Below, one piece after another: positions 35,706-62,966 of a stretch of 64,000 nucleotides of DNA. Source of the stretch: Siphlonurus alternatus (lineage: Eukaryota > Arthropoda > Insecta > Ephemeroptera > Siphlonuridae); contig OX463778.1 of assembly GCA_949825025.1 (NCBI GenBank), forward strand, positions 50,120,829 to 50,184,828, given 5' to 3'. Numbering within the stretch: the first letter of the stretch is position 1; each line of letters starts with the position of its first letter. Under the pieces are notes generated by a model. It was given only the letters and a program-made list of their open reading frames with translations. It was not told where the DNA came from and did no database searches. Position numbers and translations under genes: made by a program.

Positions 35706-37601
35706 TCAAAAGCACCGTTCGTTCCTCACAACTCGGTTCCAGTACAGCGTGTTGTTAGGAGGAACATTTCCATTGTTGCGGCGGTGTGCCCAGCCACGAG
35801 CACATCGCCAGCATTTCCTCGTCTCGTCGCGAGAGCTCTGCCTCCTCTTGGACTGCTGACACGGACATGGGCCATTTCTTCGTGGACTCATTTTCATATT
35901 AGGAGGGTAGATGAACCTGAAACCGAATTTAGTGATTTTTATGAGAGCCCGCAGATCAAACGATGGATCAACCATTGCACGTAAAGGTTAGTTTCTTATC
36001 TCGTTTCGCTGATAATGACCTGTAGTAAAAATAGTATTCAATTTGTTTTGATCCGCAGGCTCTCATATACATCTTAGAAGATTGGAAAACTTAACTTCAG
36101 ATTAATATTTTTATAAGTCATTTTAAAATTTTTAGAAAAGGAAAAATAATTATTAGTGGATCGACAAGTGGAGTAGCAATATAAAATTCTTATAACGCAA
36201 AGAAAATTTTCTTAGATAAAAAAATACAGCAAATGAATTTAAAACAAACGAGATCTTATCTTTAAATTTTTATCTATGCCGTCTAATAGCACTATAATTT
36301 TTTATAGAATTGATTTATTTCAATTATACAATAATGTTGGGTTTGATACAGCAAATTAATTTTATAATATTATAGAATTTGATCATTTTAGTCAAAAAGT
36401 ATATAGAAGCAAAAATTAGTTTATTTATTTTAAAAATATAATCGTAATGTAAAGAAAAAAAATATCACTTATTTTTTTTTTTTTTAATATACATAAATTA
36501 ATATACGTAATTTTTACTGTAAAGTCTATATTGCATACACGATGCAATTTTGCATACAATTTTTCTATGCAAGACGTATCCTAGTCATTTTTTAATGGAT
36601 TTAATGTTTTCTTGTAAAGAAAAATTGTATATGCAATAACAAAATTTAAAAAATTAATTTTGTCGTAATACTGATTTTTTGGCATGTAAAACATTATGAA
36701 ATAATCACTAAATTTAAAAAAAATACCTTTTGATTGCTTTGCTCTTCCGATTTCTTTGTTTCAATCTAAATTTTCTCATCTTGCATTGACAGCTCTTTCT
36801 CATAGTGGAGCCTCTACTTCTATAATTCCTCTTTCTGTAAGGTTTCCTGGGACGTTTTGTATTGCGGTCCCTCCTGCACGAACAAGGAGATGGTCGGATG
36901 ACACGCAGGTGCAACCTCGCGGACTGCTGCGAGCCAGGTGACAGTTTGCTCAGCACGTGGGACAGAAAGTTGTTCTGGCGAAGCTGCCTGCCCATCGCTC
37001 CCTCCAGAGCTTCTCTGTCACCAGGAGTCCTCAGTACGGACTCGATGTTGGACTTCACAATCTTGGGAATGCGAGGCAATTCGTTCAGAAGTACAACGCC
37101 AGGCGATCGATCCTGAATTAAAGAATTGTCTCGAAAATGCATCGGTATTTTAAATCCTATTTTAATAATTTTACTTCTTGTATCTAAGCTGGGTCTTTTA
37201 TTTTTAGTGCTGTCAGCAATTATAGAATTCTGAAAAATGAAATCATAATTAGTAAATATTATACTATCCATTTCTGTTATATAATATTATTATATCAAAC
37301 CTGTTTCAAAGCAGCTGGCTCAGGGATATCAGTTACTGCTGGGGAGATAGAAGGGGGCGTGGCATCTTGGGTTTCTGATATGCTAGTGGTTTTGTTGTTA
37401 CCATTCAACCACGTGACTATTTCTTGCAACGCCTCCTCAATCGCCTATAAAAAAATTAGCTCTAATTATAACACAAATTTTACAATTATTTAAATTTAAT
37501 TTCAAAATAAAAGAAACAGATCTATTCTATATTAAAAGTGTAAGTGACTTCAGATCTAGAGTTACAATGGCACTGCAGTCATGCTTTAGAATTGAAAAAA
37601 G

Positions 37602-37639
<38 letters not shown>

Positions 37640-38020
37640 AAAATAATAAAATAGTTAAAACAAATATTCAAGAAATTTAACATTTCCCAAAATTTTCTAA
37701 ATTACTTTTTTCACGTTACTTTTAGATTCATTTAAAGTTCTTTGTAATGTTCTTTGTATTTTTTTTTTTTAAGTTTTACATTCCCTCTTCAATTACACTA
37801 ATACGCTAATACCCTGCAAATTAGTCTGCGATGCATTATAGTCTTATAGACTCTTCAAGTGACCCCCCCCCCCTTCCAACGTTGCAATGCAAAGCAGTAA
37901 GAAGCAGATGAAGGTATTTCTTACGTCGTTCCTCTGCGCGATCAGATTGACGGCGATGAGCAGTGTCACGAAGGAGAAGAGGCAGAGCAACGTCTTGGTC
38001 CAGAACATGGTGGCCTGCAT
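35706..38020 (-). CDS. S1: secreted modular basic protein, family not recognised
   Basis: Reverse-strand exons: 38020-37925, 37444-37301, 37229-36727, 35916-35706, giving 317 residues. Exon 1 is a signal peptide (TLLCLFSFVTLLIAVNL). Exon 2 (phases 0-0) begins AIEEALQEIVTWL, a short helix. Exon 3 (0-2) is a globular-looking stretch that turns strongly basic with CSC and CQC pairs; its donor (AAAAG|GTATTT) lies just before an in-frame stop, and I prefer splicing because the next exon fits. Exon 4 (2-end) has CPC and CWRC pairs and NGNVPPNNTLYW, matching the tail of S4. A leader exon may lie near 38634-38670, with donor ACAA|GTAAGT. No function can be assigned. Confidence 0.65.
37608..37637. repeat. 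Poly-A run in an S1 intron
   Basis: A run of about 30 A (+ strand) within an intron, adjacent to other A/T runs. Confidence 0.8.
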
Positions 38021-39350: not shown

Positions 39351-39357
39351 GGAAAGG

Positions 39358-39710
39358 TCGAGCGTGGCGCAGTGCATTGACCGGTTCTCGCGCGTTAGAT
39401 CACTGAAGTCAGGCTACGTCGCGCGTGGTTAGTATACTTGGATGGGTGTCCGTTTCAAGTAAAAAATTACACTGCTCCCTCCCTGTGGTAAATTCGTCTC
39501 GCTTTCCACCCAGGGCAGTGATGCACTTGTGTGTGGTTCCCCAGGCTTCGGACATTACTTTGGTCCATTGATAAAAAGTAGAGGTGTCCGTCCTGACTGA
39601 GGTTTCCTTTCCACGATCCTTTCCCTACCTTATGCCTGCCCATATTACCCCGCCGCAAGCTATAAGCTATTAGGGGTGTTCCTTAATTGTAAAAAAAAAA
39701 AAAAAAAAAA
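39358..39710 (+). mobile_element. 5S rRNA-derived SINE, copy 1
   Basis: The head (about 39364-39455) follows 5S rRNA: GACCGGTTCTCG, TTAGATCACTGAAGTCAG, then GTGGTTAGTATACTTGGATG covering the internal pol III promoter. The body is unrelated to 5S (about 39456-39690: TTTCCACCCAGG, GTGTGGTTCCCCAGGC, GTCCGTCCTGACTGAGG) and the element ends in 20 A. This is the layout of SINE3-class elements. Confidence 0.85.
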
Positions 39711-40516: not shown

Positions 40517-42748
40517 TTACATACGGTGAAATGGGCCTGACGTCTTGAATTCTTGATTTCTGTAGCAAAGTTTCTTCAAATCCGGACATTGGTAGATAGG
40601 TATGTAATGGTGAGATCTGAAATATATAATGTGTATAAATAATGGGAGGTGTGGCGCAGTGCGCTTGACCGGGTCTCGTCAGATCACCGAAGTCAAGCAA
40701 CGCCGCGCGTGGTTAGTAGTTGGATGGGTGACCATTTTCAACAAAAACCACGTTTCCCACCCAGGGGTAAAACGTTGCGCTTTTCCACCTTGTGGTTCCC
40801 CTGGCTTTGGACCATTGCACTTCCGGTTCATTGACAAAAGCTGTAGCGTCCATCCTGGCTGAGGTTTTCACGTTTCCCTCAGCCGCAGGCAAATGCCGGG
40901 ATGGATTTGCAAGGCCGTGGCCGCCCTCGTTCCAGAAGAGCCCGCGAAACGCTCAAGTTAGGGTTTCGGAAGGTTCGGGGTTTCAAAGTAGTATGTAATT
41001 AGTAAATAGAAGTACCCAATAGGGTTTGATTAAAAACTAAAAAAAAAAATAAATAAATAAATAATATGTCTTCAGTTATCAAGTATTAATATAAAGTAGT
41101 CATCATCACCTCGCAAAATTTCCTACTTTGCCTTGTTAATCACCGTATCCTGTGTTATTCTTATGAGGCATGTGGGGATTAACAAGGTTGTAAAAGGAAA
41201 TTTTCTAAGGTGACGAGTGTATACTTATATTTAGTCTGAAAATTGTGTCATTTTATATGAGCCATGATAGGAGCGTATGAAGAACTGACATTACTGTATT
41301 AAAATTGTAAATCGACAACCTAATTAATATTTTTTTTTATTTAGAGAAATAAATAGTATAAAGGTTTTCAAATTATGGTACTCTGATTTATTTTAATCCA
41401 TATAATTATTTATTAAAAGTGCGGCCACGCCCCATGGAGAATTTTACACCCTATCCTTTTAATAAATTCATAAATCCGTTAAATTTGTATTTAGATTGGT
41501 ACAGTATGACAATTCCTAAAGGTTTAATATTTTTATTATTGAATAGATTTTTCAATGTTTATTTGCATTTGACCAAATAATTAAGTCGATACTCCGTTTT
41601 ATTAAAAATTACTTTTTTCTTGAAGTATATTAACATCAAAACAATAATAAAATTATGTTAATAACATATAGCATACGCTGCAGTTATAGTACACTCAATT
41701 CGAATAAAATTGTCCGATCCGGCTATACTTTAACATGGCCGGATCGGACACTTTTATCTGAATGAAGTGTACATAGGCCAGTACTAAATTCATAAATTAC
41801 CTTCTGTAAGGGTACTGCCTCTTCGCAACACCAGTTTTCTTGTCTAAATTTTCATCTGGCGACTGAGATAAGTTTTCCTGTGATGATTGAGAGTTGCTAC
41901 ATTTAGAACAAAAGTCGTGGGAACTAGAAACTTTTTCGTCGGTTGTCGAGCTTGATGTGTTGGGATCGGAGTTGTAGAGGTAGTAATATTCCTCGGACTG
42001 TTTGTGGTCTGAATTTCCGGCTTCTGATTGGTTGCTGGAGTCCTCCACAGAAGTCCAGGACTCAAACTGACCAGAGGCGGACTGTTTATGAAAGTCCTCA
42101 CCATAATCAAATTCGGGGTTGTAAAAGAATTTCCTTGATTTTTTTTTAACTTTATCCAATTCCAAATATTCTATTCTTTGTGTTATATTATTATTTGTAA
42201 TAATTGTCGTTGGACGTGGTGGTAGTTGCTGTAAAATGGTATAAAGCATACTGTTAGATTATCGTGCTAGAAATGTGCGCTCTTCGCCTTGGAAAATATC
42301 CCCACATGGCAATATAATACGCCATCATCATTGCACTCGTAATTTGCTATATTTTATTCATTTGACGACCCTTGCATTTGTTGAAGGTGAAATTGAAATG
42401 AGAAAATTTTGCATTAAAGATATACGTCATAAAGGTGAAGTTTGTTTTATAATGCTCTTTGATAACTCCACCCTACTATCTTTCTAGGTCTGTATGTATC
42501 AATTTTCTGATGCACTCGTAAACTCGTACAAAAATTTTGGTGTGACCCTGCCCATAAGTTTTGTATTGGAGAAGAAAGATCAAGTTTGTGACGTCAGACA
42601 AATGGCAAGCCGTACAAACTATAAAATTAGTGGGTGAGTAGCAAGCACTCGGGAGAATGTCTGTTGGAAGAACTAAGTTAATTACCTTATCGGTTGAAGA
42701 TGCCACGTGACAGAGGAAAAGGCACAACAATGCTTCATAATACAACAT
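40517..42748 (-). CDS. S2: secreted Ser/Asp/Glu-rich protein, family not recognised
   Basis: Reverse-strand exons: 42748-42686, 42228-41801, 40616-40517, giving 196 residues. Exon 1 is a signal peptide (MLYYEALLCLFLCHVASS). Exon 2 (phases 0-2) is polar, with QLPPRPTTIITNNN, a basic patch KVKKKSRKFF, a Ser/Glu/Tyr-rich middle and FCSKCSNSQ, comparable to KCTSCSANSK in S5. Its donor (AGAAG|GTAATT) lies one codon before an in-frame stop, so an unspliced end at 41797 (163 residues) is the alternative. The last exon (2-end) reads SHHYIPIYQCPDLKKLC and shares the PIY tail motif of S4 and S5. A SINE sits in the last intron. The 5' end has an acceptor (ACTTTCAG) before the ATG, implying a leader exon. 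Confidence 0.6.
40644..41064 (+). mobile_element. 5S rRNA-derived SINE, copy 2
   Basis: The 5S-like head is better preserved than in copy 1 (TCTCGTCAGATCACCGAAGT, CAAGCAACGCCGCGCG, TGGTTAGTAGTTGGATGGGT). The body shares TTTCCACCCAGG, TGTGGTTCCCC, TCCATCCTGGCTGAGG. The 3' part differs from copy 1 (a GC-rich block about 40885-40985) and the element ends in A-rich DNA with AAAT units. It lies antisense in the last intron of S2. Confidence 0.85.
41097..41229. repeat. Short palindromic dispersed repeat, copy 2 (family D)
   Basis: Left: CATCACCTCGCAAAATTTCC. Right: GGAAATTTTCTAAGGTGACG followed by AGTGTATAC. The centre has CCTTGTTAATCACCG and GGGGATTAACAAGG. Confidence 0.65.
41340..41600. mobile_element. 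Degenerate MITE of the A/B type
   Basis: It retains GAAATAAATAGTATAAAGG, TACTCTGATTTATTTT, GTGCGGCCACGCCCC and a right end AAGTCGATACTCCGTTTT, all diverged from the intact copies. Confidence 0.55.
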
Positions 42749-43316: not shown

Positions 43317-43437
43317 ACTTTTTGTTTAACTTATCAATAAAGTCATTCAATGTGATCTTCTTATAATCAGGCCTGTTTGATAAATGGTGCTCAGATTTGT
43401 TTGATCGATCCATTTGATAAAGGATTAGTTTTGCCAT
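43317..43437 (-). other. Possible leader exon of S2 with an upstream frame
   Basis: On the reverse strand an ATG at 43437 opens 40 codons (start MAKLILYQMDRSNKS, end FIDKLNKK) up to a strong donor (AAAGT|GTAAGT). A TATATAG-type box lies about 120 bases upstream near 43556-43563. Joined to the acceptor before S2 the frame does not enter the S2 protein, so this is either a 5' leader carrying a short upstream frame or the first exon of a gene I cannot complete. Confidence 0.3.
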
Positions 43438-43564
43438 CACGAGCTAAGAAATATTTGAAAGTGAATCACCGAGACTTCTTACAAATCTTGTAATGTCGCA
43501 ACCAAAGGCGTGCAATAAAATGGAACTTTATGCAAGCCAAGCCTAGAACTATATACTATATAGA

Positions 43565-44790: not shown

Positions 44791-47550
44791 ATGTTGCGCC
44801 TCACGGTCCTGCTGTGCGCCCTGCTGTCATGTGTTTTAGCAAACAGAGTGTACAATAACGAGCAAGTGAGTATACACTTTCAATGTTAATTGATCAATTT
44901 AATTAAATTTATTCCATCCTTTTTGCTTATTAATTTCACATAAGATTGTAAATTTGTAATTTATTGTTGAGTAAATAATTTATTGTTACCACATTGCAGG
45001 AGTACGAAAATACGGCAGAAAAACATTACAAGAAAGAAATTTATTATCCACCTACCGAACAGAAATATCCTGAACAAAACTACCCTCAGTACGTACCGGA
45101 GCATCCCCAGTACCCTGAGCATCACAAATACCCTGAACATCCTCAGTACCCTGAGCATCACAAATACCCTGAACATAACCAGTACCCTGAGCATCACAAA
45201 TACCCTGAACATAACCAGTACCCTGAGCATCACAAATACCCTGAACATCACAAATACCCTGAACATCACCAGTACCCTGAACATCCCCAGTATCCTGAGC
45301 ATCACAAATACCCTGAACATCCCCAGTACGAAAAGCAGCCACATAACACCCCAGAGCTTCACTTGCACGAACATGAGCACGACCACGCCCACATACACGT
45401 GGCCGCTGACCATGGATATCATCGTGGACATTGCTATGGAGGAAACATGGTACAATGTTCCTACAGTTGTCACACAATATTGACATGAATTTAAATTGAA
45501 GAGTTAGTGTTTTATTAGTGTTTAAAATATAACATGTGACTTACTATTTATAAATTTGTGATTTTGTACGTAATTTTTAGCTTTTCCAAATAAATTATTA
45601 TCAAATATCGATAAATAAGTGTTGGAAAATCTAAATTATTTATACTGTAGTAAGCATTATTTAATTCTATCGTACGCGTCTTTGGTGTTAAGAATTTTAC
45701 CTGCTATTAAGAATGTACAATTTAAATTCTTTTACCTGCATAATATTATAAAAAATAATATTATTATTAAAATGTTATTAGTTTCAATTTTAAAGATTAT
45801 GTTGTTCAGCATGTCTTTAAGAACATTCACAATAGTATATCTGAATCATTAGCATTTTTGGGAAGTAATAACTTTTATGTATAAATTTGTAATAACTTCT
45901 ATAAAGAAAAATTATTTTATTTTATTGATATTTTGTAAATAATGTGTGTATTTTTTTACAGGGACTTGATCTTGCCATCACTAATCTTGCTATTGCAAAC
46001 CAAAAGCTGTCGCAGCATGCCAAATATATTCCTCAAATAATTAAAGAGGCTTGCAAGTGCTGTAAATCTAAAGAATGTAAGTGTGAGAAACAGAAAGAAT
46101 CCGAAGAGTCTTATTATCCTACACAAAAGCCTTATTACCCTACTCAAAAACCTACCCATAAGCCTTATTACCCTACTCCCAAGCCCTACTATCCTACCCA
46201 TAAGCCTTACTACCCTACTCCCAAGCCTTGCCACACCACCCCAAAGCCTTGCTACACCACCCCAAAGCCTTGCTACACCACCCCGAAGCCTTGCTCCAAG
46301 AAACCAAAGTCAAAGATTATCTACGTCTGCAAGAAATCCAAGATTTCTCAGGATTCAGATTCTGCCAGCTATGACTCAAGCGAATCTTATAACAATGTAC
46401 ACAAGTATCACAAGAAAACTGATCGTGTTTATAAAGGATATCATGGGTACTACAAAGTTAACAAAGGGTAAGGAATGCCATTAAATTTCGAAATTTTTAT
46501 CTACTAATTATGTATATTTATAACAATATATTGTATGATGTATAGAATGACAACATTTTATTTTGTTAATGCAATTAATAAATCAATTAATAGCTTTAAT
46601 AAAAAAAAAATCTTGAAAGAAAGGTTAATTTTTGTCACCTTTCTGTATATAACACTAGCTTTAGTAATTTCCCTGATGGTATGTAAATTTCTCGCAGGTC
46701 GCACCACCATTACCCGCTGTGCTACCTGAAGCTGCACCACCAGTCTGGGTCACAACATTACCCTCACCACGTGTCCTACAGCAGCTCGCCAGACTTCTAC
46801 AGTAAGTTCCTCAAGTGCTGGTGGTACCCATTACCTGTGATTGAGAACGGGTCTAGCTTCCAAAATTTATATTTTTTGTTATTCAAGCTCACAATGAGAT
46901 ATTAGAATGTAAAAATTTTAGTAGCTTAAATCGAAAGAAGGGGTAAAAATATGGCGCTATGAATTTTTTCAGATTTGTCTGACACCGGGAACCATTTTTA
47001 AAAAATTATTGAAAGTCTATTTTATGTCATTACGGGCGGCACTGCCCTTTTCTTTTTCTTAAGGAGTGCCGCCCGTGACGTCATCAAAATAGACTTTCAA
47101 TAATTTTTTAAAAACAATTCCCGGTCTCAGAAAAATCTGAAAAAATTCACAGTACCATATTTTTACCCCTTCTTTCGATTAAGCCACTAAAACTTTTATA
47201 TTCTAATATCTCATTGAGAATGAAATATTGAAAAAATATTTTTATATACCTGCTCAATTTTTTCTATTTTTTCTATGTATGCTTGTTTTACTCAATAAAG
47301 TAAAAGCAAATAAAATAAAAGTGAAATTATATTTATTTCATTCCAAACTTTATTGCTTTTAAACTTTTACATTTTTTTTTTTTTTTTGTGAATCTGAAGC
47401 ATATCTTTTATAATGGAACGATGGCTTATTTAAAAAAAATATTTTGAACTTTTAATTGTGTTTACAGAACAAGAGCGCCACCACATGGAGCAGCAGCTGT
47501 ACGCTCTGGGAGGTCGCTACCACCAGCAAACCAACAACGAAGACTACTAG
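44791..47550 (+). CDS. S3: secreted Tyr/Pro/His-rich repeat protein, family not recognised
   Basis: Exons: 44791-44865, 45000-45449, 45962-46467, 46698-46801, 47468-47550, giving 405 residues. Exon 1 is a signal peptide (MLRLTVLLCALLSCVLA). Exon 2 (0-0) holds about 17 KYPEH or QYPEH units, then a His-rich block (LHEHEHDHAHIHVAADHGYH). Exon 3 (0-2) starts with a predicted helix (LDLAITNLAIANQKLSQHAK), then CKCCKSKECKCEK, then KPYYPTP-type repeats and KPCYTTPK repeats. Exon 4 (2-1) is His/Tyr-rich. Exon 5 (1-end) carries LYALGGRYHQQ, like LYKLKGG in S6. The 45449 donor (ATG|GTACAA) is the least certain; without it the frame ends at 45488. Repeats suggest a structural, adhesive or metal-binding protein, which is inference only. 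Confidence 0.65.
46891..47217. mobile_element. Palindromic MITE in an S3 intron
   Basis: Nearly perfect inverted repeat: CAATGAGATATTAGAATGTA at the left is mirrored by TATTCTAATATCTCATTG at the right. Both arms contain the A/B core (TTTTTCAGATTTGTCTGACA, ATTATTGAAAGTCTATTTT) around a GC-richer centre with GACGTCA. Confidence 0.85.
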
Positions 47551-48590: not shown

Positions 48591-50818
48591 TCAGTAGCGG
48601 CTGCCTCTATTGTTCGGGACTTCACCCAAGTAGATGGGAACGTTTCCATACGGCGATGAGTCTCCTAAAATTACGAGAATTGTACATTAATGATATCTTT
48701 TTAGTCAAAATCATTTATATTTTATTTATGTAAATATATTAGGAAGATTTTGTTTTAAGCTTATTATAAAGATTGTATATGAGTTAACGATTTAAAATTA
48801 ATGGTTTTCAATTATTTTATTAAGTAAAATAATTATCAATATTTTTATTACATCATAGGACAAAATTAAATATTTTAAATTGAAAATAAAATAGAAACAC
48901 AAAACATAACGATATTTACGCATTGCATGACACAAAATACTTACTTTGGTTTCCATTGTTTGTTGGTTTACATTTCTTGCATTTACATTTGCATTTACAT
49001 TTGTAATTTGTTGGTCTGGAAGTAGGTTTAGGAGTTGGTCTTCCGGTCGTAGGTCTGCTTGTTGGTTTGGGAGTTCTGCAATTGCAGGGCCTGTAAATGA
49101 TCATAAGTTATGAATTAAATTTAGTACGTTACAAAATATATAAATTAAAATGCTTTATGGCCGTTGTATATTACGCGCAATTCTGTTCTAGGTGTACAAA
49201 ATTCTAAGCATGTCAACATTAGTAAAATATATTGTATCCATAATATTGTACCAGGAAGTGATCCAATTTACTTACCTATTGTCATCATTGTTATTATTAT
49301 TAAAAACATTAGTATAATCATTTTCTTCTTGTGAGAAAAAATCTTGGTATGTCGCACTGTTAAATTTTGGCATTAGCGCTTTGATAAGGCAATTTTCAGC
49401 TGTTTTCTACGAAAATAAGAAGAAACCATATTAAAGTATCAATATTATAAGTTAAGGCATAATATGAGTCTAAAGACTTAGAATTTATATAATCAATAGA
49501 TAAAATTAAATCACATTTAAAATTGCTGTTTACTTTATATTAATTTTTTACCACAATATAAAATTTATGAAAATAAAATACCTCGACTTGTTTTCGTTCT
49601 GCATCACAATTTTTCTTTGGGAATACTTTGGGTGTTTTGATGGTGTATTCTGCAATAAGAAGAAAATTAAAATATTGTTTAATTATTTTTATTAGTAAGA
49701 CTTCTTCAGAAGCGAAACTAATAATAATAAATATTATTAAATATCGATACAAAAAGAATAAACTGGCAGTTCTTAAGTCAATAATACACGATACAAATTT
49801 CTCGTTTCAAGAAAACTTCAACTTAACTTGTGAGCGATTAATGCATGAAAATATCAATTACAATTTTTTAGAACGAAAACAAAAATCTATAATATTATTT
49901 TTTAATTGATCATAAATGTTTATATCACGATTTTATGTAATTTTTTTCTTCAAATCTTCATAAATATATACGTATTTTATCTCTATGCATGTATTAATAT
50001 TTACACTTTCAAGTAAATTTTAAAATATAAATATGCAAAATCTATAAATATATGGAACTGTAAATTCATTGTAACGTACATTAAATTGTCAAGTAATCAG
50101 AAAGGACTCGTCATAAGCATACATTTTCATAGTAAACCATACACAACTTACCCAACTTTTCTTCAGCATTATCTTCATCGTAATCCCCATCATTGTTGTA
50201 ATGTTCCTCGTTAATCTCGTGGTACTTCTCCTCCGCCACGTTTTCATCCTCGTGCACATCAGCCTCCTCGCCCGACGAACCATCTCCGTAGTCATCGTAT
50301 TCGTATCCTCCTTCGTCCTCGTCTTGTTGCAAGAACAGAAATAAATGCTATTCAACTGGTTTTAACGTGCAAATTTTCATGAAAGTTAAAGATTTGGGTA
50401 TTATTCTGCATGCTATACAGTTTAATACTTGAAGTCAAATTGTAAAATATTTCGATTCGGCTGTGAACATTACGACAGATTTTAAGATTTTGGTGTGAGA
50501 TAATCTACCCGTGAGGCTAGGCAACTTGTTTGGCATTTAAACGGAACGGGTTGCATAAATCAGGGGCCGTGGAGTTTCCAAGCTTTATACCATTGTTCCT
50601 TCCATTTAAAATACTAAAAAGTTGTCTATAACCTTTCTATGATTTGGTAGTCTTATAAATTTTATTGTTTGAGTCGAACATATTTACCGAATTTGACATT
50701 TTTAGTATTAATTATTAAAATTACCTTTATTGAATTTCTTGCTTGCTGCAAATGTCAGACTCGACAGCAGCAGTAAACACAACAGCAGGCACGGAGCGAT
50801 GGTCTCGTTTCGCCTCAT
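48591..50818 (-). CDS. S4: secreted acidic, Lys-Cys repeat protein, family not recognised
   Basis: Reverse-strand exons: 50818-50725, 50322-50152, 49649-49582, 49406-49276, 49090-48945, 48664-48591, giving 227 residues, all GT-AG and in frame. Exon 1 (94 bases) is a signal peptide (CLLLCLLLLSSLTFA). Exon 2 (1-1) is very acidic (GEEADVHEDENVAEEKYHE). Exon 3 (1-0) ends KKNCDAERKQVE, comparable with NYDAHQKELK in S5. Exon 4 (0-2) has LMPKFNSATYQDFFS, comparable with LLPKFEDLKYKQLFS in S5. Exon 5 (2-1) has TPKPTSRPTTGRPTPKPTSR then KCKCKCKCKKCK. Exon 6 has YGNVPIYLGEV and ends SRY. An acceptor before the ATG implies a leader exon. Confidence 0.75.
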
Positions 50819-51650: not shown

Positions 51651-51653
51651 ACA

Positions 51654-51732
<79 letters not shown>
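51651..51732. repeat. (TA)n microsatellite
   Basis: Roughly 40 TA units. The long Ile/Tyr open frame across it is spurious. Confidence 0.95.
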
Positions 51733-51737
<5 letters not shown>

Positions 51738-52280: not shown

Positions 52281-52671
52281 AATAGACAATAATGGTTGCA
52301 TTTTTTTATTTCATAATTAGAAAATATACATCAAATGAAGCTTTCCTTTATTTTTTCAGATTTTTTGGAGTGCGGGAACTAATTTTAAAAAAATATTTAA
52401 AATGTCTGAATTTGGGTGGTACGCCTGATGGGACAACCGTGACGTCATCGACAGCCAATCACAGCAGCCGTGACATCATCAACAGCCAATCACAGCACGA
52501 AAAATGATGTCACGGTTGTCCCATCAGGTGTACCACCCAAATTCAGGTATTTTAAATATTTTTTTAAAATTAGTTCCCACACTCCAAAAAATCCGAAAAA
52601 ATTCAGAAAAGCATAATTTTAGGTATAGTTTCTAATTATGAAATAAAAAAATGCAACCATTATTGTCTATT
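52281..52671. mobile_element. Long perfect-armed palindromic MITE
   Basis: Ends AATAGACAATAATGGTTGCA and its exact complement. Arms stay nearly identical to the centre, where GTGACGTCATCGACAGCCAA repeats directly as GTGACATCATCAACAGCCAA. The arms share TTTTCAGATTTTTTGGAG and the complement with families A and B. Confidence 0.85.
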
Positions 52672-52915
52672 GTATTTACAAATTTGATAAGAATCTTACA
52701 GCATTTAACATAAATTTCAGAATTAACAATTAACTATCTTTAATTAATTTGACATAATTACAGCTTTATTATTTATTGTACAACGAAAAAATAAAAAAAA
52801 AATATTATAAATTGAAATTAAATTTCAGTGTTAAAATTTGTAATAATATTATATAAACAATGACATTATACAATAAATTCAACACTGACAACACTAAAAA
52901 GAATTGACGATCTAA

Positions 52916-54823
52916 TTAATATCGTCTCTTTCGAATATTTTCTTGGCAGCGCTTTCTCTTCTTGTTTATGGCAGTCATATAAATAGGAACTTTTTGAAGA
53001 ACACCATATTTTTCTGGAAAAGTTGAATATTATAATATTTTAAAACATAAAAGTTATATAATGTTGTTAATATCAAGTTAAAGTTAATGAAATAACAATA
53101 AGAAATAAAGTTGATGCAGAAAATATTTAATTATTATATTTAAAGAACAAAAGATGAAAATTTAATCATGGTTAAATATTGATAGCCTAGTTATCTTTTT
53201 TGGATAACTCTTTCGTTAATCACACTCGATGATGTGTCAATAAATTAAATACAGATACAAATAAAAGTCAACATATTTCGAATGATGAACTTACTATTCT
53301 TTAACGGACTTCTCAACTTTGTTTGCTTCGTGCATTTACATTTGCATTTACACATTTTCCTAGACACTGGAGTATTTGGTTTTGTTGCATCAAGCCTGGT
53401 CGGTCTGCAGTGTCAAATGGAAAATGTAATAAGTAAACATGTCACAATTCTAACTACACTTTTTAAACTTACCTTTCATTATTACTCGAGAATAATTGTT
53501 TGTATTTAAGATCCTCAAACTTTGGCAACAATGTATTTATAGGTCTACTTTCTGGTATTTCAGAACGTACAATTTTATTTCGAATTTTATTACGTCTTTT
53601 CTTATTTTTAGTTTTCTTAGCAGTCTTACACTTTCTTTGTATTTTTGGTAAGTGTGCGACAAAATCTAAATTAATATTAACTGTATTTTTACTCTTTTTA
53701 TTACGTATTGATGATTGCACTGATGAGCCTACGAGATTATCTTGATTATTTATGTACGGATCTTTTGGCTCGTTATTACGATCCTCATCATATATTGAGT
53801 TATCCAGCTGGTCTGTAGGACAAAGACAGTACCCGTGGTTCAGTGCTCCTAAATCTTTAGGCTCTAACTCGTCCACGCTATCTTCGGAAGAATCATCTTG
53901 ATTATCGTGGTCCACCAAATATTCTTCATTAGGACTCTCTTCGTCTTCTTCGGAATCGAATTGATTTTCACTATCAATATCCCGTGATTTCGAGTTCGCA
54001 CTACATGATGTGCATTTACTTGGAGAAATTTCTTGTAAAGCTTCAAACATGGAGTTTAAAGATTTTAATTGATCAGCTAAATTACTTATAATTTGTTCTT
54101 GATTCTGTAAATAAGCAGAACAAAATGATATGAGTGTAAAAATTCTGTTTCATGTGCAAGAATATTAAAACTTACTTTTAATTCCTTTTGGTGTGCGTCG
54201 TAATTTATTTGATCGTCTGAGACAGCGTTAACTGTAAGAGATATGTTGAAAATGTTCTTAGTTTGTATATATAACATATTTTTTTCAATAACTAAGGCCA
54301 AAAATCAAAGTTAAACTAACAACTCTATACCATAAAAATAGAACTACTTATTGAGCTGGTGGGGATCTACATTTATCAATATTATTGTATAATCATACTT
54401 TTAAAAATGCTATAATATTATTTTATTCTTTTACACATTAAAAATACCACACTTTTGATGTTGATAGTACACTCAAACTGTCTCATCGCCTCGAGATTAA
54501 ACAACTTGCTCACCACCAATCAGGAGGCCTGTTGCTCGCAGCTCTGATTTGCCACTGAACAAGTTGCTTATACCCTCATTACAAAATGATTCATGGAATT
54601 ATTTTAGCAATTAAAATATAAAATTTATATGAAAGTAAAACATTCTTGATTCTCAAATATCAAATTTACAGCTGTTGTTTTAATTAAGAGTGTCTTAATG
54701 ATCTTCTCCTTTCTATATTGATAACTCACTCTCGTCATCATTACGTGTCCCAGCTGGTCCCGTCAGCACGCTGCGCACCAAACACGTCAGTAAACAGCTG
54801 ATCACGTACCCACCTGGTCTCAT
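52916..54823 (-). CDS. S5: secreted acidic/basic modular protein, family not recognised
   Basis: Reverse-strand exons: 54823-54730, 54231-54176, 54104-53473, 53404-53295, 53013-52916, giving 329 residues. Exon 1 (94 bases, as in S4) is a signal-like peptide (YVISCLLTCLVRSVLT). Exon 2 (1-0) contains INYDAHQKELK. Exon 3 (0-2) starts with a helix (NLADQLKSLNSMFEALQEI) and KCTSC, then a long acidic stretch, then a basic tract (KCKTAKKTKNKKRRNKIRNK) and LLPKFEDLKYKQLF. Exon 4 (2-1) has TRLDATKPNTPVSRKMCKCK, the counterpart of exon 5 in S4. Exon 5 has YGVLQKVPIYM and ends RKRRY. An acceptor (CATTTCAG) before the ATG again implies a leader exon. Confidence 0.75.
54486..54572. repeat. Short palindromic repeat upstream of S5 exon 2
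   Basis: CGAGATTAAACAACTTGCTC and TGAACAAGTTGCTTATA form inverted ends. CGAGATTAAGCAACTTGTTG recurs at about 63916 and AGGCAACTTGTTTGG at about 50519. Confidence 0.45.
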
Positions 54824-54957
54824 ATCAAAACCTGCGTGCTACCTCGACACTGAAATGTAACATTATCTAAGAATTCTATGAGATTTATGTTGTAGTTTTT
54901 AGTAAAAAGTCAGTCATAGAGAGTGGGACTATTAGTACAGCGCAAATGCAATGTACA

Positions 54958-55080
54958 GTACACTCTTCGCCTTGGAAAATTTCCCATGCTTGCAACCGTG
55001 TTAATCATCATGCCCTGTGTTATTCTTACGAGGTATTAACAAGGCCGCAAAGATAAATATTCAGAAGCAACGTCTGTACC
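54958..55080. repeat. Short palindromic dispersed repeat, copy 3 (family D)
   Basis: GTACACTCTTCGCCTTGGAA and AATTTCCC at the left; AACAAGGCCGCAA and AACGTCTGTAC at the right; the centre reads CCTGTGTTATTCTTACGAGG. Confidence 0.65.
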
Positions 55081-55177
55081 TTTCATTTTGAGTATGACTG
55101 GTCAAATGGTAATCAATTGGTAATATATGTTAAGTGATTTTTTTCTACAGTGTTTCTACAAGAGAAATTGCAGGGTA

Positions 55178-55513
55178 ATGGACAACATACATGAAAAAAA
55201 ATTATTACAGAAATGAATAGAGGGTACCAAATTATGCTACTCTGAATTTTTTCAGATTTTTTTGAAACCCAGAACAATTTTTAAATAATCATTGAAAGTG
55301 CGGCCACGCCCCCTGGAGGTGTCAATATATAGGCGTTTGGTCTCTATCCTTTTTATTAAGAATTCAGGGGTGCCAACTGAAATTACAGGACTTTCAATAA
55401 TTATTTAAAAATAGTTCCGGGTCTCAAAAAAGTCTTAAAAAACTCAGAGTAGCATAATTTGGTATACCCTCTATTCATTTCTGCAATAAATTTTTTTCAT
55501 GTATGTTGTCCAT
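55178..55513. mobile_element. MITE family B copy
   Basis: Ends ATGGACAACATACATGA and the complement; same core as the copies at 51142 and 55849. Confidence 0.9.
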
Positions 55514-55848
55514 TGTTAAAAATAGCACATTAAAAATTATGGCATAAGTTTATTAAATTTATTATGTAAAAATTATCCTTTTAATTAAGTGTTTAAATTT
55601 ATACTACTTAAGAAATATTGAGCCATTTTAAATAAAATCGATACAGATAAAAAATTAATAAAAGAATTTGGCCTAAAGTATAATCAATGAATTATGCACA
55701 ATTAATTTTTATTAATTATATGTATTTTTCAATAAATTTATACACAATAAATAATATTTCACTATATCCTTGTATATATTGTTATAAATTTTTTTAATAT
55801 ATATATTTTAATATAGTTAGTTTATCATATACTAAATTATTTATAGTA

Positions 55849-56182
55849 ATGGACAACATACATGAAATAAATTTATTGCAGAAATGAATAGAGGGTACCA
55901 AATTATGCTACTCTGAATTTTTTTAGATTTTTTTGAGACCCAGAACTATTTTTAAATAATTATTGAAAATGCTGCTACGCCCCCTGGAGGCGTCAATATA
56001 TAGGCGTCCAGTCTCTATCCTTTTTATTAAGAATTCAGGAGTGCCAACTGAAATCACAGGACTTTCAATAATTATTTAAATATAGTTCCGGGTCTCAAAG
56101 AAATCTGAAAAAAATCAGAGTAGCATAATTTGGTACTCTCTATTCATTTCTGCAATAATTTTTTTTCATGTATGTTGTCCAT
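55849..56182. mobile_element. MITE family B copy
   Basis: Ends ATGGACAACATACATGA and the complement, only about 335 bases from the previous copy, with the same orientation of the asymmetric centre (GCCCCCTGGAGGCGTCAATA). Confidence 0.9.
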
Positions 56183-56189
56183 TCTATAA

Positions 56190-57200
56190 GTAAAAAAGTT
56201 CAAGTCTGAAAATTCAATATTTTAAATGCTGGCTATACTTTCCAATTTTTCCAGCCTTCAAATATTGAAAAAATATGAATCACGAAGAAAGATACCCACG
56301 TTCTTCACTAACCATGCACATATAGCGTTTAGTAAGTAAGCCTAATTCAATGACACTGATAAACGCGGGTCAATAGTGCAAAACCTGTTAATCTTTCTAT
56401 AATATTTATCACTTATTCCTGAATGCCCATATAAATGAATCTTTATTAATGTTTTGGTATATTATGTGTAATACCAGCTTCTCTAAATACTTACCAACAT
56501 AAAGGTAGATTTCCAGAAAAAAACTAAACTCATAACTTGGTTGACGTGACTTTATAAATAATCTGTAATCTTTGTAAACGTGCTCAAATGAAAGGCATTT
56601 AAATTTTATTTAAAAAAACTATAAAATGTGTGTAAAAAAAAAACGTTATTTCTGGATTTGACGCATAGAAACGCAATAAAAATATAAACAGTATGAAAAT
56701 GCATATTTTTATTACAAAATATATACAACTTTGCGTAAGAAAACGTGCATGATGGAAGAGTGACAGGGCAGAACTGTGTTTTGTTTATTAAATGATAAGG
56801 CATGCATGTAATTTTCCTTCTTGTGCACCATGAAACAACTTTAATTATAATTGTTACTATTTGTTACATAATTATAGTCCCTTCATTTTAAACAATCAGA
56901 AAACATTTTTTTGGAAAATCTACAAAATAAATCGAAACCAAAAAAAAAAGGCATCAGATGTTAATTGATTTGTTTCAATGATTTATTGTTTTTATTGTCT
57001 GTTTAACAATCACACCAGCTAATTTTAGACTTCACTGTACTATGACCAAATTACTGTGTGTATGATTTTTTTTAAACAATAACTAAGACCTGAATAAAAT
57101 AAAAGAAAAACGATAAGTCTTAATATATAATTAATTTTAAATACAAAGATATACGTATGTAATTCCACTAACAATAAGGACATATTTAATAATTAAACAT
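56190..57200. other. AT-rich intergenic DNA between S5 and S6
   Basis: No gene or repeat recognised. Confidence 0.5.
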
Positions 57201-57204
57201 TATT

Positions 57205-57450
57205 AAGTTAATGAAACACTTACATGAAATTTTTTTACTGCAAATATGAATAGAGGGTACACACCAAATTATGCTACTCCGAAATTCTTCAGATTTTTTT
57301 AAGGCTCCAGGGGTACCAACATAAATTAGAGAACTTCAATAATTATTTAAAAATAGTTCCGGGGCTTAAAAAAATCTGAAAAATTCAGAGTGGCATAATT
57401 TGATACACTCTTTTCATTTTTGCATTAAAAAATTTTCGTGTAAGTTAATT
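57205..57450. mobile_element. Short, internally deleted MITE family B copy
   Basis: ACTTACATGAAAT and TTTCGTGTAAGT ends. The core TGAATAGAGGGTA and AATAATTATTTAAAAATAGT are kept but the GC-rich centre is mostly missing. Confidence 0.7.
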
Positions 57451-57605
57451 AAAATGAATTGTTCTGCATTACATTTTGTTTTGTATCTTGCAACAGCTCC
57501 TAATTTGCATATAGACATTAGAGACTCAGATTTGCAAGTTTGAGGGAGGTGAGTGTAGACATTTTCTCTTGAACTCCATCCAGGCGTGTGCCGAAGAGTG
57601 CACTG

Positions 57606-58139
57606 TTAGTAACGCTTCCTGAATGGACAACGGCATTTCTTTTTTGCTCTCTTTTCAGGAACACCGCCCTTTAATTTGTATAAAGATACTCCCTTCTGCT
57701 TTTTCCCTGAAAATTAAAACAAACAATTTTTAGGTAAGTATTTTCATCAATTTAAATAAAAATTACCTATATAGTATATTTTCAAATAACTATGTCACTG
57801 ATGTTGTTGTTTGTACATCATACATGTACAACATCATATATGTTGTAAGTAACCTAAATATTCTTCTGTCAGATATTTCAAATTATTTTAGAGATAAATA
57901 TATAAAAAAAAAATTAACATGATGTTTCATGTAAAGAATTAAAAAAAAAAAACAAAAAAAAAAAAAACATGATATCCTGTTATAAGTTTGTAATTTTATT
58001 TTACGCCAAAATCACCTGTTAAGTTAAAACTCTCGTTTAATTTTTTTCAAATTTTATATATAATATATGAAGATGAAATATAGTAAGTTTTTCAACTTAC
58101 AGACATTGGCAGTATTTTATATAATTTTAAACTTCTACG

Positions 58140-58170
<31 letters not shown>

Positions 58171-60383
58171 TATAATACACTTATATAATATAATGAAAAA
58201 ATAATATTTTTACAGACAAGGTTTGTATTATCATTATTAATTGAATGGTTGTAAAACTATTTTCCAATCGAAGAATAAAAATAACTTGCATATTTTTATT
58301 ACTGTTTTGTTATGACTTTAATTGGGATCTTTTTCTTTATCCCCATTGTGAACTCAAACTATGAACGTACCACCTTTACGGTATTTACGACATTTGCGAC
58401 GCAGCACCATTCCTCCGTATTTGGATTTTACTCTGACGTCGTAACATTTCTTTATTGGCTTAGGTGGGGAACACGCTCTGAAAAAAAATGAAGCGTTTTA
58501 CAATAATGATGCAATGTGTATCTCACTCACAAGTCAGTTCTGTAATAGAGCAATTACAACTCAAGACAATCTTAACTTTTCATTAAGAAGATCTGACGAA
58601 TTTAGTAGCACATCAATAGATGTCAAATGTCTTTCAAAAAAATAATCAAAATAAATTACTTTCCAACACTCACCCAAAAAAGATGCAAGTTTCCACCTGT
58701 CAGTGCACTCGAATCCTCCCCCCTCCCTCTTTCCTTTCCTCCACACAGCAGACACTCTTAAACGAGGAAAATGGCTTCAGCTTTTATATTTTTTTCTTTC
58801 GTTTTATAACTAATGTTAAACATATTTGTGCACCAAAAAAATAGTCACCACCCTCAGCATTCCACCAGTTCAGCAGTTGACATTCAAAAAGCACGTCAAA
58901 TAAAATTAGGGCTTATGACGTCAAGAGCCATGATAGGTCAAGCACAACCAATCGTTTGTTTGAGACACAAGTAAGTTTGATATTATTTATAAAACGGTAA
59001 AAATATAAAAGCTAAAGCCGTTCCCCTCCTTTAAATAAGTTTTAACTCCGTGTTATTACCCAGAGTCGATTAGCACATCATGAACCTCATGACTGGCACC
59101 TTAAAACGCACTTTATATTAAAATTTCAGACACCGTTGACAGAGCCAAATTCCATAATGGACAACTTACATGAAATATTTTTACTGAAAAAAATGAATAG
59201 AGAGTTCATACCAAATTATGCTATTCTGAAATTTTTCAGATTTTTTTTTTTTTTTTTTTTAGTCCTGCAACTATTTTTAAAAATTTATTGAAAGTGCAGC
59301 CACGCCCCTGGAGGCGTCAATAGGCATTTTTGCCCTACCCTTTTAATTACGGATTCAGGGGTGCCAACTTAAATTACAGGACTTTCAATAATTTTTTTAA
59401 AAATAGTTCCGGGACTCAAAAAATCTGGAAAAAATTCAGAGTGGCATAATTTGATACCCTGTTTTCATTTTTGCAATAAAATTTTTCATGTATGTTGTCC
59501 ATTCATGAAGTTCGTAAAATACAAAGAAGGTTAAATTAAATATAATGAATAAACTGTGGGCGAGACCTCACCGTTGCACCTGGTCGTCGTGAGTTTGCGG
59601 CGGTTGGTCTGGTGCCTGATAGCCGTGCTCAAGGTCAGGTCGCTCCGTGAACTCATCCTCGTCAGTTTGAGGGAGGCCAGGTCGCTCCTTTGGGTCATCC
59701 TCGGAGTTCAAGCCACGACTATCTTTGCACTTACCTATTAACTTCTCTATATTGGATAAAATTGGAACTACATCTTTGAAGATATTTAGTAAGTGAGAGG
59801 TGTTTCGAGAATTCACCTGAAATTTAAAATGAGCAAATTTTAATCACTGTTTGGAACAAATTTTGATTACATATAGTTACATTACAATCAATTTTAATAT
59901 TAAATAACTTACACCATGCAAAGAGGGTATAGATCTGGTATAGAAAGTAAATCATGTGAAGACATGATGCACTTCGTATTACTTTGAACTTCTCTGAAGT
60001 CTATATAAGCTTTATTTACTTTGATTTTATAAACAATACAGTACAGCTATATCAAAAAATTAACTTTAAGATTAATACACCATTCAGGATAATAAAATTT
60101 ATTGTTTAATAATAAGATTTTTTTATGTTTTAAATAATATCCGAAATGCTCTCACCTGCAAAGCGTTGCTTATTTCTTCTAATTGGTCTTTGCAGCCGCA
60201 AAGCTCAAGTTGATCTCCACCAATTGTACCCTCTATTAAAAAAAAATAATAATAATATTAATAGATTATTAAAATAGTGGTCTTTTAAATGTATACTATA
60301 TGGGTTGTAGCACCGGTAGGTGGAAATACTATAACTATGTAATGTATCTTCAAAATAATAGGTTTCTTCGTAAATACAATATA

Positions 60384-60453: not shown

Positions 60454-60539
60454 TATGTGATAACTTTTTCAAAAGAGTTTGGAATTTGATTTTAAGAACA
60501 CATGTTACAAAGATGGTGTAAGCCAGAGTAAAATATTAT

Positions 60540-60618
<79 letters not shown>

Positions 60619-62966
60619 TAAATAAATAATCAGATCTTCCTTATGGTACTGGTACGATTAATTCATGAATCGATTGTGCATTTACGAACACACGTTTTTC
60701 TTTCATTATTACTTTCTTGTGCAACTTTTGGTCCTAGATAATGGGCGCGATTCACGAATATTAGCCTGGTGCTAACCGCGGTTAGTAAGAAAGCTGGATA
60801 ACTTTCTGGATAACTATTTCATGAATCGTCCCCATAATATATCCGATTGCACGAATGTCAATCTAAATAGTTGAGCTAGAGTACAACACACTTTTAGTAA
60901 GACCTAATTTGATAACCGTGTTTTTGTGTTATGCTGATTTTAAAATTGAAACAAACGAGTTTTTCAGTTAAGGCATTTCGCATACTAGAACAACAAAACA
61001 TTCATGCAATCAGAACTACTTACTCTTACAGTTAGTATAAAATTGGTAATATGCAAAGATCATGCATGAATCATGATTTTTTATTTTTATGATTTTATTT
61101 ATTTTTTATGTTATTACCTGTCACTATTTCGTCACCTCCGATTCCATCTGTTGAATGCTCTGTAGTAGTTAATTCTGGGGTTGTTGTCAGTTCTTCAGTC
61201 GTTATTTCTGGGGTTGTTGTTGTCATTTCTTCAGTTGTTATTTCTGGGGATGTTATTTCTTCAGTCGTTATTTCTGGGATTGTTGTTATTTCTTCAGTTG
61301 TTATTTCTGGGGGTTTTATTTCTTCAGTCGTTATTTCTGGGGTTGTTGTTATTTCTTCAGTCGTTATTTCTGGGGTTGTTGTTATTTCTTCAGTCGTTAT
61401 TTCTGGGGTTGTTGTTATTTCTTCAATCGTTATTTCTGGGATTGTTGTTATTTCTTCAGTTGTTATTTCTGGGGGTTTTATTTCTTCAGTCGTTATTTCT
61501 GGGGTTGTTGTTATTTCTTCAGTCGTTATTTCTGGGGTTGTTGTTATTTCTTCAGTCGTTATTTCTGGGTTTGCTGTTATTTCTTCAATCATTATTTCTG
61601 GGATTGTTGTTATTTCTTCAGTTGTTATTTCTGGGGATGCTATTTCTTCAGTCGTTATTTCTGGGGTTGTTGTCATTTCTTCAGTTGTTATTTCTGGGGA
61701 TGCTATTTCTTCATTCGTTATTTCTGGGGTTGTTGTTATTTCTTCAGTCGTTATTTCTGGGGTTGTTGTTATTTCTTCAATCGTTATTTCTGGGATTGTT
61801 GTTATTTCTTCAGTTGTTATTTCTGGGGATGCTATTTCTTCAGTCGTTATTTCTGGGGTTGTTGTCATTTCTTCAGTTGTTATTTCTGGGGATTCTATTT
61901 CTTCATTCGTTATTTCTGGGGTTGTTGTTATTTCTTCATTCGTTATTTCTGGGGTTTTTATTTCTTCAGTCGTTATTTCTGGGGTTGTTGTTATTTCTTC
62001 AATCGTTATTTCTGGGATTGTTGTTATTTCTTCAGTTGTTATTTCTGGGGATGTTGTTGCAAATTCTATGGTCGTTATTTCTGGGGTTGTTGTTGTCAGT
62101 TCTACAGTCGTTATTTCTGGGGTTGTTATTTCTTCAGTCGTTATTTCGGGGGTGGTTGTTGTCATTTCTTCAGTCGTTATTTCTGGGGTTGTTGTCAGTT
62201 CTACAGTCTTTATTTCTGGGGTTATTGTTATTTCTTCAGTCGTTATTTCTGGGGTTGTTATTTCTTCAGTCGTTATTTCGGGGGTGGTTGTTGTCATTTC
62301 TTCAGTCATTATTTCTGGGGTTATTGTCAGTTCTACAGTTGTACTTTCTGTGGGGGTTGTTTGCTCTAGTGCTATTGTTGATTTTTCTGGTGTCAATGTT
62401 TCCATCGATACTGTTTCTACAGGTGCTAAAGTTTCTTTTGTTGTTATTTCGTCAATTGCAATAATTTCTTGTGTACTTGCATCTGTTGAGGTGACAATCT
62501 TAAGGTCTTTGGTTTCGGTGTTCAAAAGACTAGGAGCGTCAGTTTCTGTTTGCAATGAAGTATTTAATTCTTCAGGTACAACAGTCGTAGAAGTGCCAGC
62601 TTCTATGTTACCCTGAGTGATCGATTCTCCGGGCTCACTTGTCACTGGATCACCAGCTACTGCTTGGGTATTGACAATAGTATTATTTGATTCTCCCGGT
62701 TGTTCAGTCGGTATAGCATCGGTTATTACAGGCGTTTTTGTTTCAGAATTTATTTCATCAACAGGAGGATTTTTTGCTTCACCTATAGTAACCAGGTTGT
62801 CTGCTATTTCAGGTTCATTATTTGGTGTAGCTTCAGTATTACCTGGACTGTCTGGTTGCATGGTTGGGGTACCATTCACTTCAAAAGTCGTGGTTTCAGC
62901 CAACGCCACATATTGCGGCAGCACAATACAAAATAAGAGCAATGGTATATAGCCCATCTTAATCAT
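57606..62966 (-). CDS. S6: secreted mucin-like Thr/Glu-rich repeat protein, family not recognised
   Basis: Reverse-strand exons: 62966-61118, 60232-60156, 59816-59572, 58477-58371, 57706-57606, giving 792 residues. Exon 1 (start-1) encodes a signal peptide (YIPLLLFCIVLPQYVALA), a Thr/Pro/Glu region, then about 40 copies of a 9-11 residue unit of the type TTPEITTEEI. Exon 2 (1-0) reads LELCGCKDQLEEISNALQ. Exon 3 (0-2) is a helix (HLLNIFKDVVPILSNIEKL), then Asp/Glu/Pro-rich. Exon 4 (2-1) is Cys/Lys/Arg-rich. Exon 5 has GVSLYKLKGGVP and ends CRCPFRKRY. The Thr-dense repeat is a likely O-glycosylation domain. An acceptor (TTTTTGCAG) near 63033 implies a leader exon. Low-copy, non-repeat exons anchor it to the S family. 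Confidence 0.75.
58141..58171. repeat. (TA)n microsatellite
   Basis: About 15 TA units in an S6 intron. Confidence 0.85.
59157..59502. mobile_element. MITE family B copy in an S6 intron
   Basis: Ends ATGGACAACTTACATGA and TCATGTATGTTGTCCAT; core TGAATAGAGAGTTC, GTGCAGCCACGCCCCTGGAG, GACTTTCAATAATTTTTTT. Confidence 0.9.
60388..60446. repeat. (TA)n microsatellite
   Basis: About 29 TA units in the first intron of S6; a second run follows at 60543-60616. Confidence 0.95.
60543..60616. repeat. (TA)n microsatellite
   Basis: About 37 TA units. Confidence 0.95.
60749..60830. mobile_element. Short palindromic element with ATTCACGAA ends
   Basis: ATTCACGAATATTAGCC at the left, TATTTCATGAATCG at the right, and CTAACCGCGGTTAG in the centre. 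Related in ends to the 51470 element. Confidence 0.5.
61150..62350 (-). repeat. Coding minisatellite in S6 exon 1
   Basis: Around 40 tandem units of 27, 30 or 33 bases. On the coding strand most contain CCAGAAATAACGACTGAAGA with one-base variants (ACGATTGAAGA, ACGAATGAAGA). Units with GCATCCCCA or ACAATCCCA recur in the same order, so larger blocks of four to six units were duplicated. All lengths keep the frame. Confidence 0.9.

Follow-up and report, generated by a model that had tools for sequence, protein, structure and literature searches.

Six predicted secreted-protein genes in a mayfly: a candidate family held together by exon phase

Within a stretch of 64,000 nucleotides from the mayfly Siphlonurus alternatus (assembly GCA_949825025.1, contig OX463778.1, positions 50,120,829 to 50,184,828 of the forward strand; the whole stretch is referred to below as the window) six secreted-protein genes, S1 to S6, can be modelled between positions 35706 and 62966, and the predicted exons and their phases make it well supported that they are one family. 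The models give products of 317 amino acids for S1, 196 for S2, 227 for S4, 329 for S5 and 789 for S6, with two forms of S3 of 187 (S3a) and 255 (S3b) amino acids. Five of the genes lie on the minus strand and S3 alone on the plus strand, the intron count varies from two to five, and the window, at about 32% G+C, contains introns and repeats. A sequence-only reading of this DNA had described the cluster as one family with a common architecture and little conserved sequence, and as judged from the predicted genes this six-gene observation is confirmed in the main, with the family claim supported for S3 to S6 and reasonable for S1 and S2. The explanation preferred here, tentatively and with slightly less than even confidence, is that S1 to S6 are tandemly arranged members of one family and encode secreted structural proteins with charge blocks, probably disordered over most of their length. 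These proteins would condense with one another and then be fixed by disulphides, the likeliest product being a water-setting glue such as an egg coat.

The models were built by listing open frames and splice scores on both strands between 35 and 64 kb and then reading each region in three frames, with the splice scores taken from a simple consensus made for this analysis and not trained on this animal. A hydrophobic, signal-peptide-like start is present in six of six genes by hydropathy and gene model, which bears out the signal-peptide exon claimed earlier for every member. The phase of the first intron divides the family, being 0 in S1, S2 and S3 and 1 in S4, S5 and S6. At the other end of the genes S3 to S6 follow a 0-2-1 pattern, in which a 0-2 exon (exon 3) and a 2-1 exon (exon 4) lead to a short tail exon, while S1 reads 0-0-2, with exon 4 and tail within one last exon, and S2 reads 0-2 without a separate exon 4. 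This plan is recovered by an exon-chain scan in which gene names were not used and which relied on splice scores and open frames to find three exons in succession: a 0-2 exon (minimum 120 nt), a 2-1 exon (minimum 90 nt) and a last exon between 50 and 130 nt long. Over the 29 kb from 35000 to 64000 the scan returned four 0-2-1 loci, exactly S3, S4, S5 and S6, against a mean of 0.13 and a maximum of one locus in 60 block-wise dinucleotide shuffles, a contrast that is somewhat flattering because the exons were already known when the thresholds were chosen. Of the 27 possible phase patterns 0-2-1 is also the commonest between 35 and 64 kb, and the next, 1-2-1 with three loci, overlaps the same genes. 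The exon plan that had been proposed for all six thus stands for four of them, and is looser in S1, where the last two exons are fused, and in S2, where the 2-1 exon is missing. The non-coding leader that had been thought common to the genes is left unproven, in that an acceptor scoring above 1 lies 15-60 nt before the ATG in two of the six genes, compared with 204 of 1000 background ATGs.

What can be said of homology at the level of residues? The likeness is good between S4 and S5, fair between S1 and S4, and elsewhere mostly at chance, as gauged by shuffle counts that are not corrected for the number of pairs. Comparison with 500 shuffles per pair covered the tails (15 pairs), exon 4 (10 pairs) and exon 3 (15 pairs), and counts of 1% or less were obtained for S4-S5 in the tail, exon 4 and exon 3 (3, 3 and 5 shuffles, respectively), for S4 with the end of S1 exon 3 (0), and for S3-S5 in exon 3 (2). 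For whole C-terminal regions only S4-S5 (0 of 1000 shuffles) and S1-S4 (2 of 1000) fell below 1% among 21 pairs, so that homology across all members is not seen at this level. When the starts of exon 3 were compared (for S1, the start of exon 2), the lowest of the 15 pairs were S1-S5, S3-S5 and S2-S3 with 22, 34 and 37 of 2000 shuffles. An alignment of all six proteins was too poor to serve as a search query. The six tail strings quoted in the earlier reading do all lie in frame within predicted last exons, and the LxPKF...FS element that it assigned to S4 and S5 is real. Three of the six tails (S2, S4 and S5) carry the motif [ILV]P[ILV]Y, and any such 4-mer is shared among three tails in 53 of 20000 shuffles; an exact 4-mer common to two tails arises frequently by chance (2022 of 20000). 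Tyrosine is the last residue in S3, S4, S5 and S6.

Net formal charge is +44 in S1 and -120 in S6, whereas S5 (+11) and S4 (-7) are built of opposing blocks, of -28 and +39 in the former and -22 and +15 in the latter. In S1, S4, S5 and S6 an acidic N-terminal part gives way to a basic, cysteine-rich C-terminal part, and this polarity is matched in none of 2000 shuffles for S4, S5 or S6, in one for S1 and, more moderately, in 45 for S2. An amphipathic stretch opens exon 3 of S3, S5 and S6 (its strength reached by 3, 20 and 29 of 2000 shuffles) and exon 2 of S1 (by 49 of 2000), and for S6 exon 3 AlphaFold places a helix over residues 4-33, with a predicted local distance difference test score (pLDDT) of 73, 89 and 86 for the successive blocks of ten residues from 1 to 30. 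CxC motifs, found by eye, occur in S1, S3b, S4, S5 and S6 and are absent from S2 and S3a, such short motifs being of a kind that easily arises by chance. In S1 there are two cysteine-rich basic stretches, one closing exon 3 and the other in the last exon, which also bears the tail.

On the preferred explanation, oppositely charged members such as S1 and S6, together with the charge-block proteins S4 and S5, would be packed together in secretory granules, with S6 probably O-glycosylated. The packed proteins would condense by charge, through complex coacervation, and associate via their helices, and after release disulphides between the CxC exons would lock the material. The fillers (TEE, YPEH, YPTxKP and poly-acid) would need bulk composition only, and their sequences could therefore change without constraint although the exon frame is retained. 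The use would most likely be a water-setting secretion, with a fibrous or adhesive egg coat as first choice and silk as second. In the accessible parts of the sources, mayfly egg coats are described as fibrous and as turning cohesive and adhesive once laid in water (PMC7412187), chorionic adhesive material is named in a title within the reference list of the same paper (PMC7412187), and egg attachment filaments are said to differ among mayfly species and to be absent in some (PMC12284592). The adhesive or silk-like secretion suggested at the outset is still the best reading, with material and tissue both conjectural.

The silk option has a known precedent within the order, since silk from the Malpighian ducts of Polymitarcyidae nymphs has been described (PMC11073006), and the same family of genes might accordingly supply the silk of nymphs or the lining of their burrows. 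The strong repetitiveness of S3 and S6 would suit such a material, yet their repeats are short and polar and the silk source, in its accessible part, describes one family, so that a silk of this kind is considered rather unlikely.

One exon of the cluster can be compared with a second genome. The sole match to S1 in a large protein set is P0031, a protein of 220 amino acids from a 1103-base contig, in which 128 of the 167 residues aligned with S1 exon 3 are identical (77%), a figure whose weight depends on how far apart the two species are. On the 3' side of this exon both frames stop just past the predicted donor (KRYFF and a stop in S1, KR ending P0031), so that the comparison says nothing about conservation beyond the donor. 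On the 5' side the likeness is to an out-of-frame reading of S1 exon 2, with 0 of 1000 shuffles as good, and extends about two codons beyond the predicted donor; little likeness follows, and then NYDFIFQ appears just before the predicted acceptor of exon 3. The out-of-frame match and the NYDFIFQ stretch suggest that P0031 is a translation of genomic DNA that continues across the intron. The match therefore supports S1 exon 3 as coding, without proving its splice sites.

Several observations weigh against the preferred explanation. The charge polarity is not seen in S3b or S3a (1846 and 1051 of 2000 shuffles as high), and the amphipathic start of exon 3 was not found in S2 (717 of 2000) or S4 (1192 of 2000). 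S1 exon 3 gives a poor AlphaFold model (mean pLDDT 46), and its good conservation in the second genome is not what a filler free to drift would show; the divergence behind the rapid evolution suggested earlier is shown between paralogues only. Nineteen of the 21 C-terminal pairs are not below 1% of 1000 shuffles, and the opsin half of the window (1-35000) also yields 0-2-1 at two loci, and 1-1-0 at four. Finally, no datum favours an egg coat over gut, cuticle or Malpighian tubules. Some of these points would also suit six unrelated orphan genes that happen to be adjacent, with the common plan a coincidence or the product of selective reading: pairwise alignments are mostly at chance level, the scan thresholds followed sight of the exons, and the opsin half gave its own two chains. 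Such an origin is nonetheless judged quite improbable, as it has to account for one phase pattern at four separate loci where 0.13 were expected, as well as for the tail motif and the clear homology of S4 with S5.

How, then, do these genes compare with established secreted materials? The Drosophila glue genes Sgs1, Sgs3, Sgs7 and Sgs8, whose common origin is argued from a shared phase 1 intron in the available part of PMC6352337, resemble the S genes in being secreted, in their clustering (Sgs3, Sgs7 and Sgs8), in fast repeat turnover and in conserved C-termini with cysteine-rich members (PMC6352337). The S genes differ in belonging to a mayfly, in having two to five introns, in the 0-2-1 3' end of S3 to S6 and in their added helix and tail exons. 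The Sgs hallmark, a signal peptide split by a phase 1 intron, is absent from S1-S6, for the first intron follows the signal peptide and is in phase 0 in S1 to S3, in phase 1 but after residue 31 in S4 and S5, and after the repeat exon in S6. Moth sericins and silk mucins (Ser1, Muc1 and P150) are likewise clustered and carry CXCX or CXCXC near the C-terminus, according to the accessible text of PMC9745057, and the S genes share with them clustering, low complexity and C-terminal CxC motifs. Unlike the sericins, the S proteins are not serine-rich as a group and have charge blocks instead: serine makes up 1.6-14.3% across the family, with 14% reached by S2 alone, compared with the 14-35% reported there for Ser1-type proteins of two moths (PMC9745057). 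That S1 to S6 are orthologous in the strict sense to the sericins of Lepidoptera or to the Sgs genes of Drosophila is hence scarcely credible, given their serine content and the lack of a phase 1 intron inside the signal peptide, even if repeats and CxC motifs toward the C-terminus are known from some such genes (PMC9745057, PMC6352337). A third system is the cement of the sandcastle worm, in which Pc1 to Pc5 comprise secreted polybasic, polyacidic and mixed-charge proteins (PMC11277488, in part). The S proteins are similarly predicted to be secreted and of opposite or mixed charge, with S1, S4, S5 and S6, though not S3, having the opposite charges or charge blocks expected of a coacervate cement; the animal is unrelated. 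On paper, and by analogy, the S family would work like all three systems, yet it misses a defining feature of Sgs genes and of sericins.

Database searches bear on two further alternatives. Pfam was run on seven proteins, comprising the six S products (S6 lacking its repeat exon, S3 in the S3b form and S5 lacking its signal exon) and a neighbouring kinase-like protein, and found no family at its cut-off for S1 to S6 in these forms. The S proteins might be components of cuticle, gut lining or another extracellular matrix and not a glue, as their secretion, cysteines and low complexity and the tyrosine-rich S2 and S3 would allow; with no chitin-binding or other matrix domain reaching the Pfam cut-off in the forms searched, this is regarded as unlikely. 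It is improbable that they are precursors of cationic, cysteine-rich defence peptides, in which an acidic propiece neutralises a basic C-terminal peptide. The acidic N-terminal and basic, CxC-bearing C-terminal parts of S4 and S5 would fit such precursors, but cysteine spacing differs between the genes, S6 carries a repeat of about 400 residues rich in threonine and glutamate, S3a is rich in histidine and tyrosine, and Pfam assigned no family at cut-off. A search of 5.8 billion sequences with S5, again without its signal exon, left none of 633 candidates at E<=10, in a set that does contain mayfly proteins. The family is therefore unrecognised, as had been claimed, to the extent that no Pfam cut-off is reached, S5 has no match and S1 has one, the large-set search having covered S5 and S1 and not S2, S3, S4 or S6. 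The one PDB match to S5 up to E 1 is USE1 (E 3e-4, 23.8 bits, residues 15-184), which is taken, provisionally, as a product of coiled-coil and acidic composition. Papers on silk and egg adhesive in mayflies, and on their genomes, yielded nothing describing the family, subscription journals being mostly outside the scope of that search.

Among S4, S5 and S6, all on the minus strand, S5 and S6 have an identical five-exon plan and S4 has one exon more. S5 begins with a signal-peptide exon ending in phase 1 (54730..54823), the sole ATG-to-phase-1-donor candidate in 54240-57600, whose hydropathy of 2.62 led to an alternative in-frame start, MLYIQ.. (1.41), being set aside. Exon 2 (1-0, 54176..54231; open-frame list and three-frame reading) is followed by exon 3 (0-2, 53473..54104), which has an amphipathic start, KCTSC, an acidic serine patch, a basic patch and LLPKF..LFS, and by exon 4 (2-1, 53295..53404) with MCKCKCKC, both of which rest on the open-frame list, shuffle tests (one for exon 4) and the exon-chain scan. 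The tail exon (52916..53013, three-frame reading) encodes KVPIYM..RKRRY and a stop. In S4 the signal exon (phase 1, 50725..50818; gene model and hydropathy) was the only one returned by the same search of 50330-53000. The extra exon is symmetric (1-1, 50152..50322; three-frame reading and gene model), very acidic and without an acceptor scoring above 0. Exon 2 (1-0, 49582..49649; gene model), exon 3 (0-2, 49276..49406; open-frame list, shuffle test and exon-chain scan) with LMPKF...FFS, exon 4 (2-1, 48945..49090; open-frame list, shuffle tests and exon-chain scan) with PCNC..KCKCKCKCKKC, and a tail exon (48591..48664, three-frame reading) with YGNVPIYLGEV..RY and a stop complete the gene. S6 exon 1 (61118..62966; repeats and gene model) combines the signal peptide (ATG at 62957, or in frame at 62966) with about 400 residues of a threonine- and glutamate-rich repeat of the TTPEITTEEI type and ends in phase 1; the ATG-to-phase-1-donor search of 62990-63990 found no candidate. 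Thereafter come exon 2 (1-0, 60156..60232; open-frame list) with LELCGC, exon 3 (0-2, 59572..59816; open-frame list, exon-chain scan and AlphaFold) with the modelled 30-residue helix and then GKC, a basic, cysteine-containing exon 4 (2-1, 58371..58477; open-frame list and exon-chain scan) and a tail exon (57606..57706, three-frame reading) with LYKLKGGVP..RKRY and a stop.

S1 and S2 also lie on the minus strand. The gene model of S1 comprises a signal-peptide exon with a phase 0 donor (37925..38020, hydropathy 2.74), exon 2 (0-0, 37301..37444), which has its amphipathic start followed by sequence rich in proline, serine and threonine and to which the out-of-frame match in P0031 applies at the DNA level, exon 3 (0-2, 36727..37229), the exon conserved in P0031, whose basic PCxC..CxC end is like S4 exon 4, and a last exon of entry phase 2 (35706..35916) with PCPC..KCWRC and the tail GNVPPNNTLYW, stopping at 35706. 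S2 has a signal-peptide exon of phase 0 (42686..42748; gene model and hydropathy), a 0-2 exon (41801..42228; open-frame list and gene model) of serine, tyrosine and acidic residues with FCSKC, and a last exon of entry phase 2 (40517..40616, gene model) with the tail HYIPIY. An open stretch upstream of S2 with an ATG and a donor (43317-43438, minus strand) has no evident signal peptide and was left out of the model.

S3, on the plus strand, is doubtful as a single chain and probably makes two products from one gene. Its signal-peptide exon (phase 0, 44791..44865; gene model and hydropathy) is followed by an exon of YPEH repeats, rich in histidine and tyrosine (45000..45488), within which donors are only weak. 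Since this exon is open to its stop at 45488, and an AATAAA lies 101 nt later, it is probably an alternative last exon, so that S3a (signal peptide and YPEH) and S3b (signal peptide, helix and tail) are probably separate products. S3b would continue through exon 3 (0-2, 45962..46467; open-frame list, gene model and exon-chain scan), with an amphipathic start, CKCC and YYPTxKP repeats, a histidine- and tyrosine-rich exon 4 (2-1, 46698..46801; three-frame reading and exon-chain scan) and a tail exon with LYALGGRY and a stop (47468..47550, three-frame reading). Directly after this stop stand four 125-bp tandem repeats (47577-48079), and the AATAAA spacing of about 125 nt within them indicates that poly(A) signals have possibly been multiplied. 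Coding tandem repeats lie at 45102-45329 (36 bp, S3a) and 61164-62361 (33 bp, S6), and their number may vary among individuals.

An inverted-repeat element, about 330-345 bases long and with TGGACAACATACATGAAA ends, is present four times within the cluster (51143-51470, 55179-55512, 55850-56181 and 59158-59501), and these copies account for eight of nine matches; similar elements near 46950, 52300 and 57220 were noted only by eye. Rfam matches to MIR2619 inside these elements, and one to mir-1420 on a hairpin seen by eye, are far below the gathering score and were rejected. An element at 40641-40762 resembles 5S ribosomal RNA (Rfam 40.4, gathering score 38) and looks like a 5S-derived short interspersed nuclear element, with a second copy, judged by eye, at 39355-39690 that seems to share the following sequence. 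Adjoining the cluster is an intronless ecdysteroid kinase-like gene (EcKL by Pfam, 33643-34926), whose closest named relatives among the 30 matches listed are from Cloeon dipterum (50% and 47%) and Neocloeon triangulifer (44%), with a metagenome protein at 57%. Beyond it, between 6234 and 30624, lie tandem pieces of several opsin genes, with 7tm_1 matches for all five stretches tested, which we take to be of the long-wavelength-sensitive (LWS) type. They are consistent with the mayfly LWS cluster, of which Cloeon has four genes in one cluster that is present also in Ephemera danica (PMC7250882, in part). Kinase-like gene and opsins both point to a mayfly as the source of the DNA, and the 50% identity makes it probably a different one from Cloeon dipterum and Neocloeon triangulifer.

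A bolder version of the glue explanation, possible but doubtful, is that the genes beside the LWS opsins are a mayfly-lineage cluster for an underwater glue made of several charge-block proteins. Coacervate adhesive would then have arisen independently in this lineage, one of the oldest among winged insects, with nothing inherited except the exon-phase frame and a short tail while filler exons were swapped. The swapped fillers would be the symmetric 1-1 acidic exon of S4, the repeat exon of S6 and the alternative YPEH exon of S3. The family itself is judged real and, within the searches made, unrecognised; its general kind is known, its exon-frame signature is unusual and its function is unproven. 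If the explanation is true, the genes would offer a molecular handle on how mayflies glue their eggs, or their burrows, under water. They would also represent a clear case of homology surviving in intron phases once most of the sequence is lost, and would show how an underwater-glue gene set can be assembled by exon insertion and duplication.

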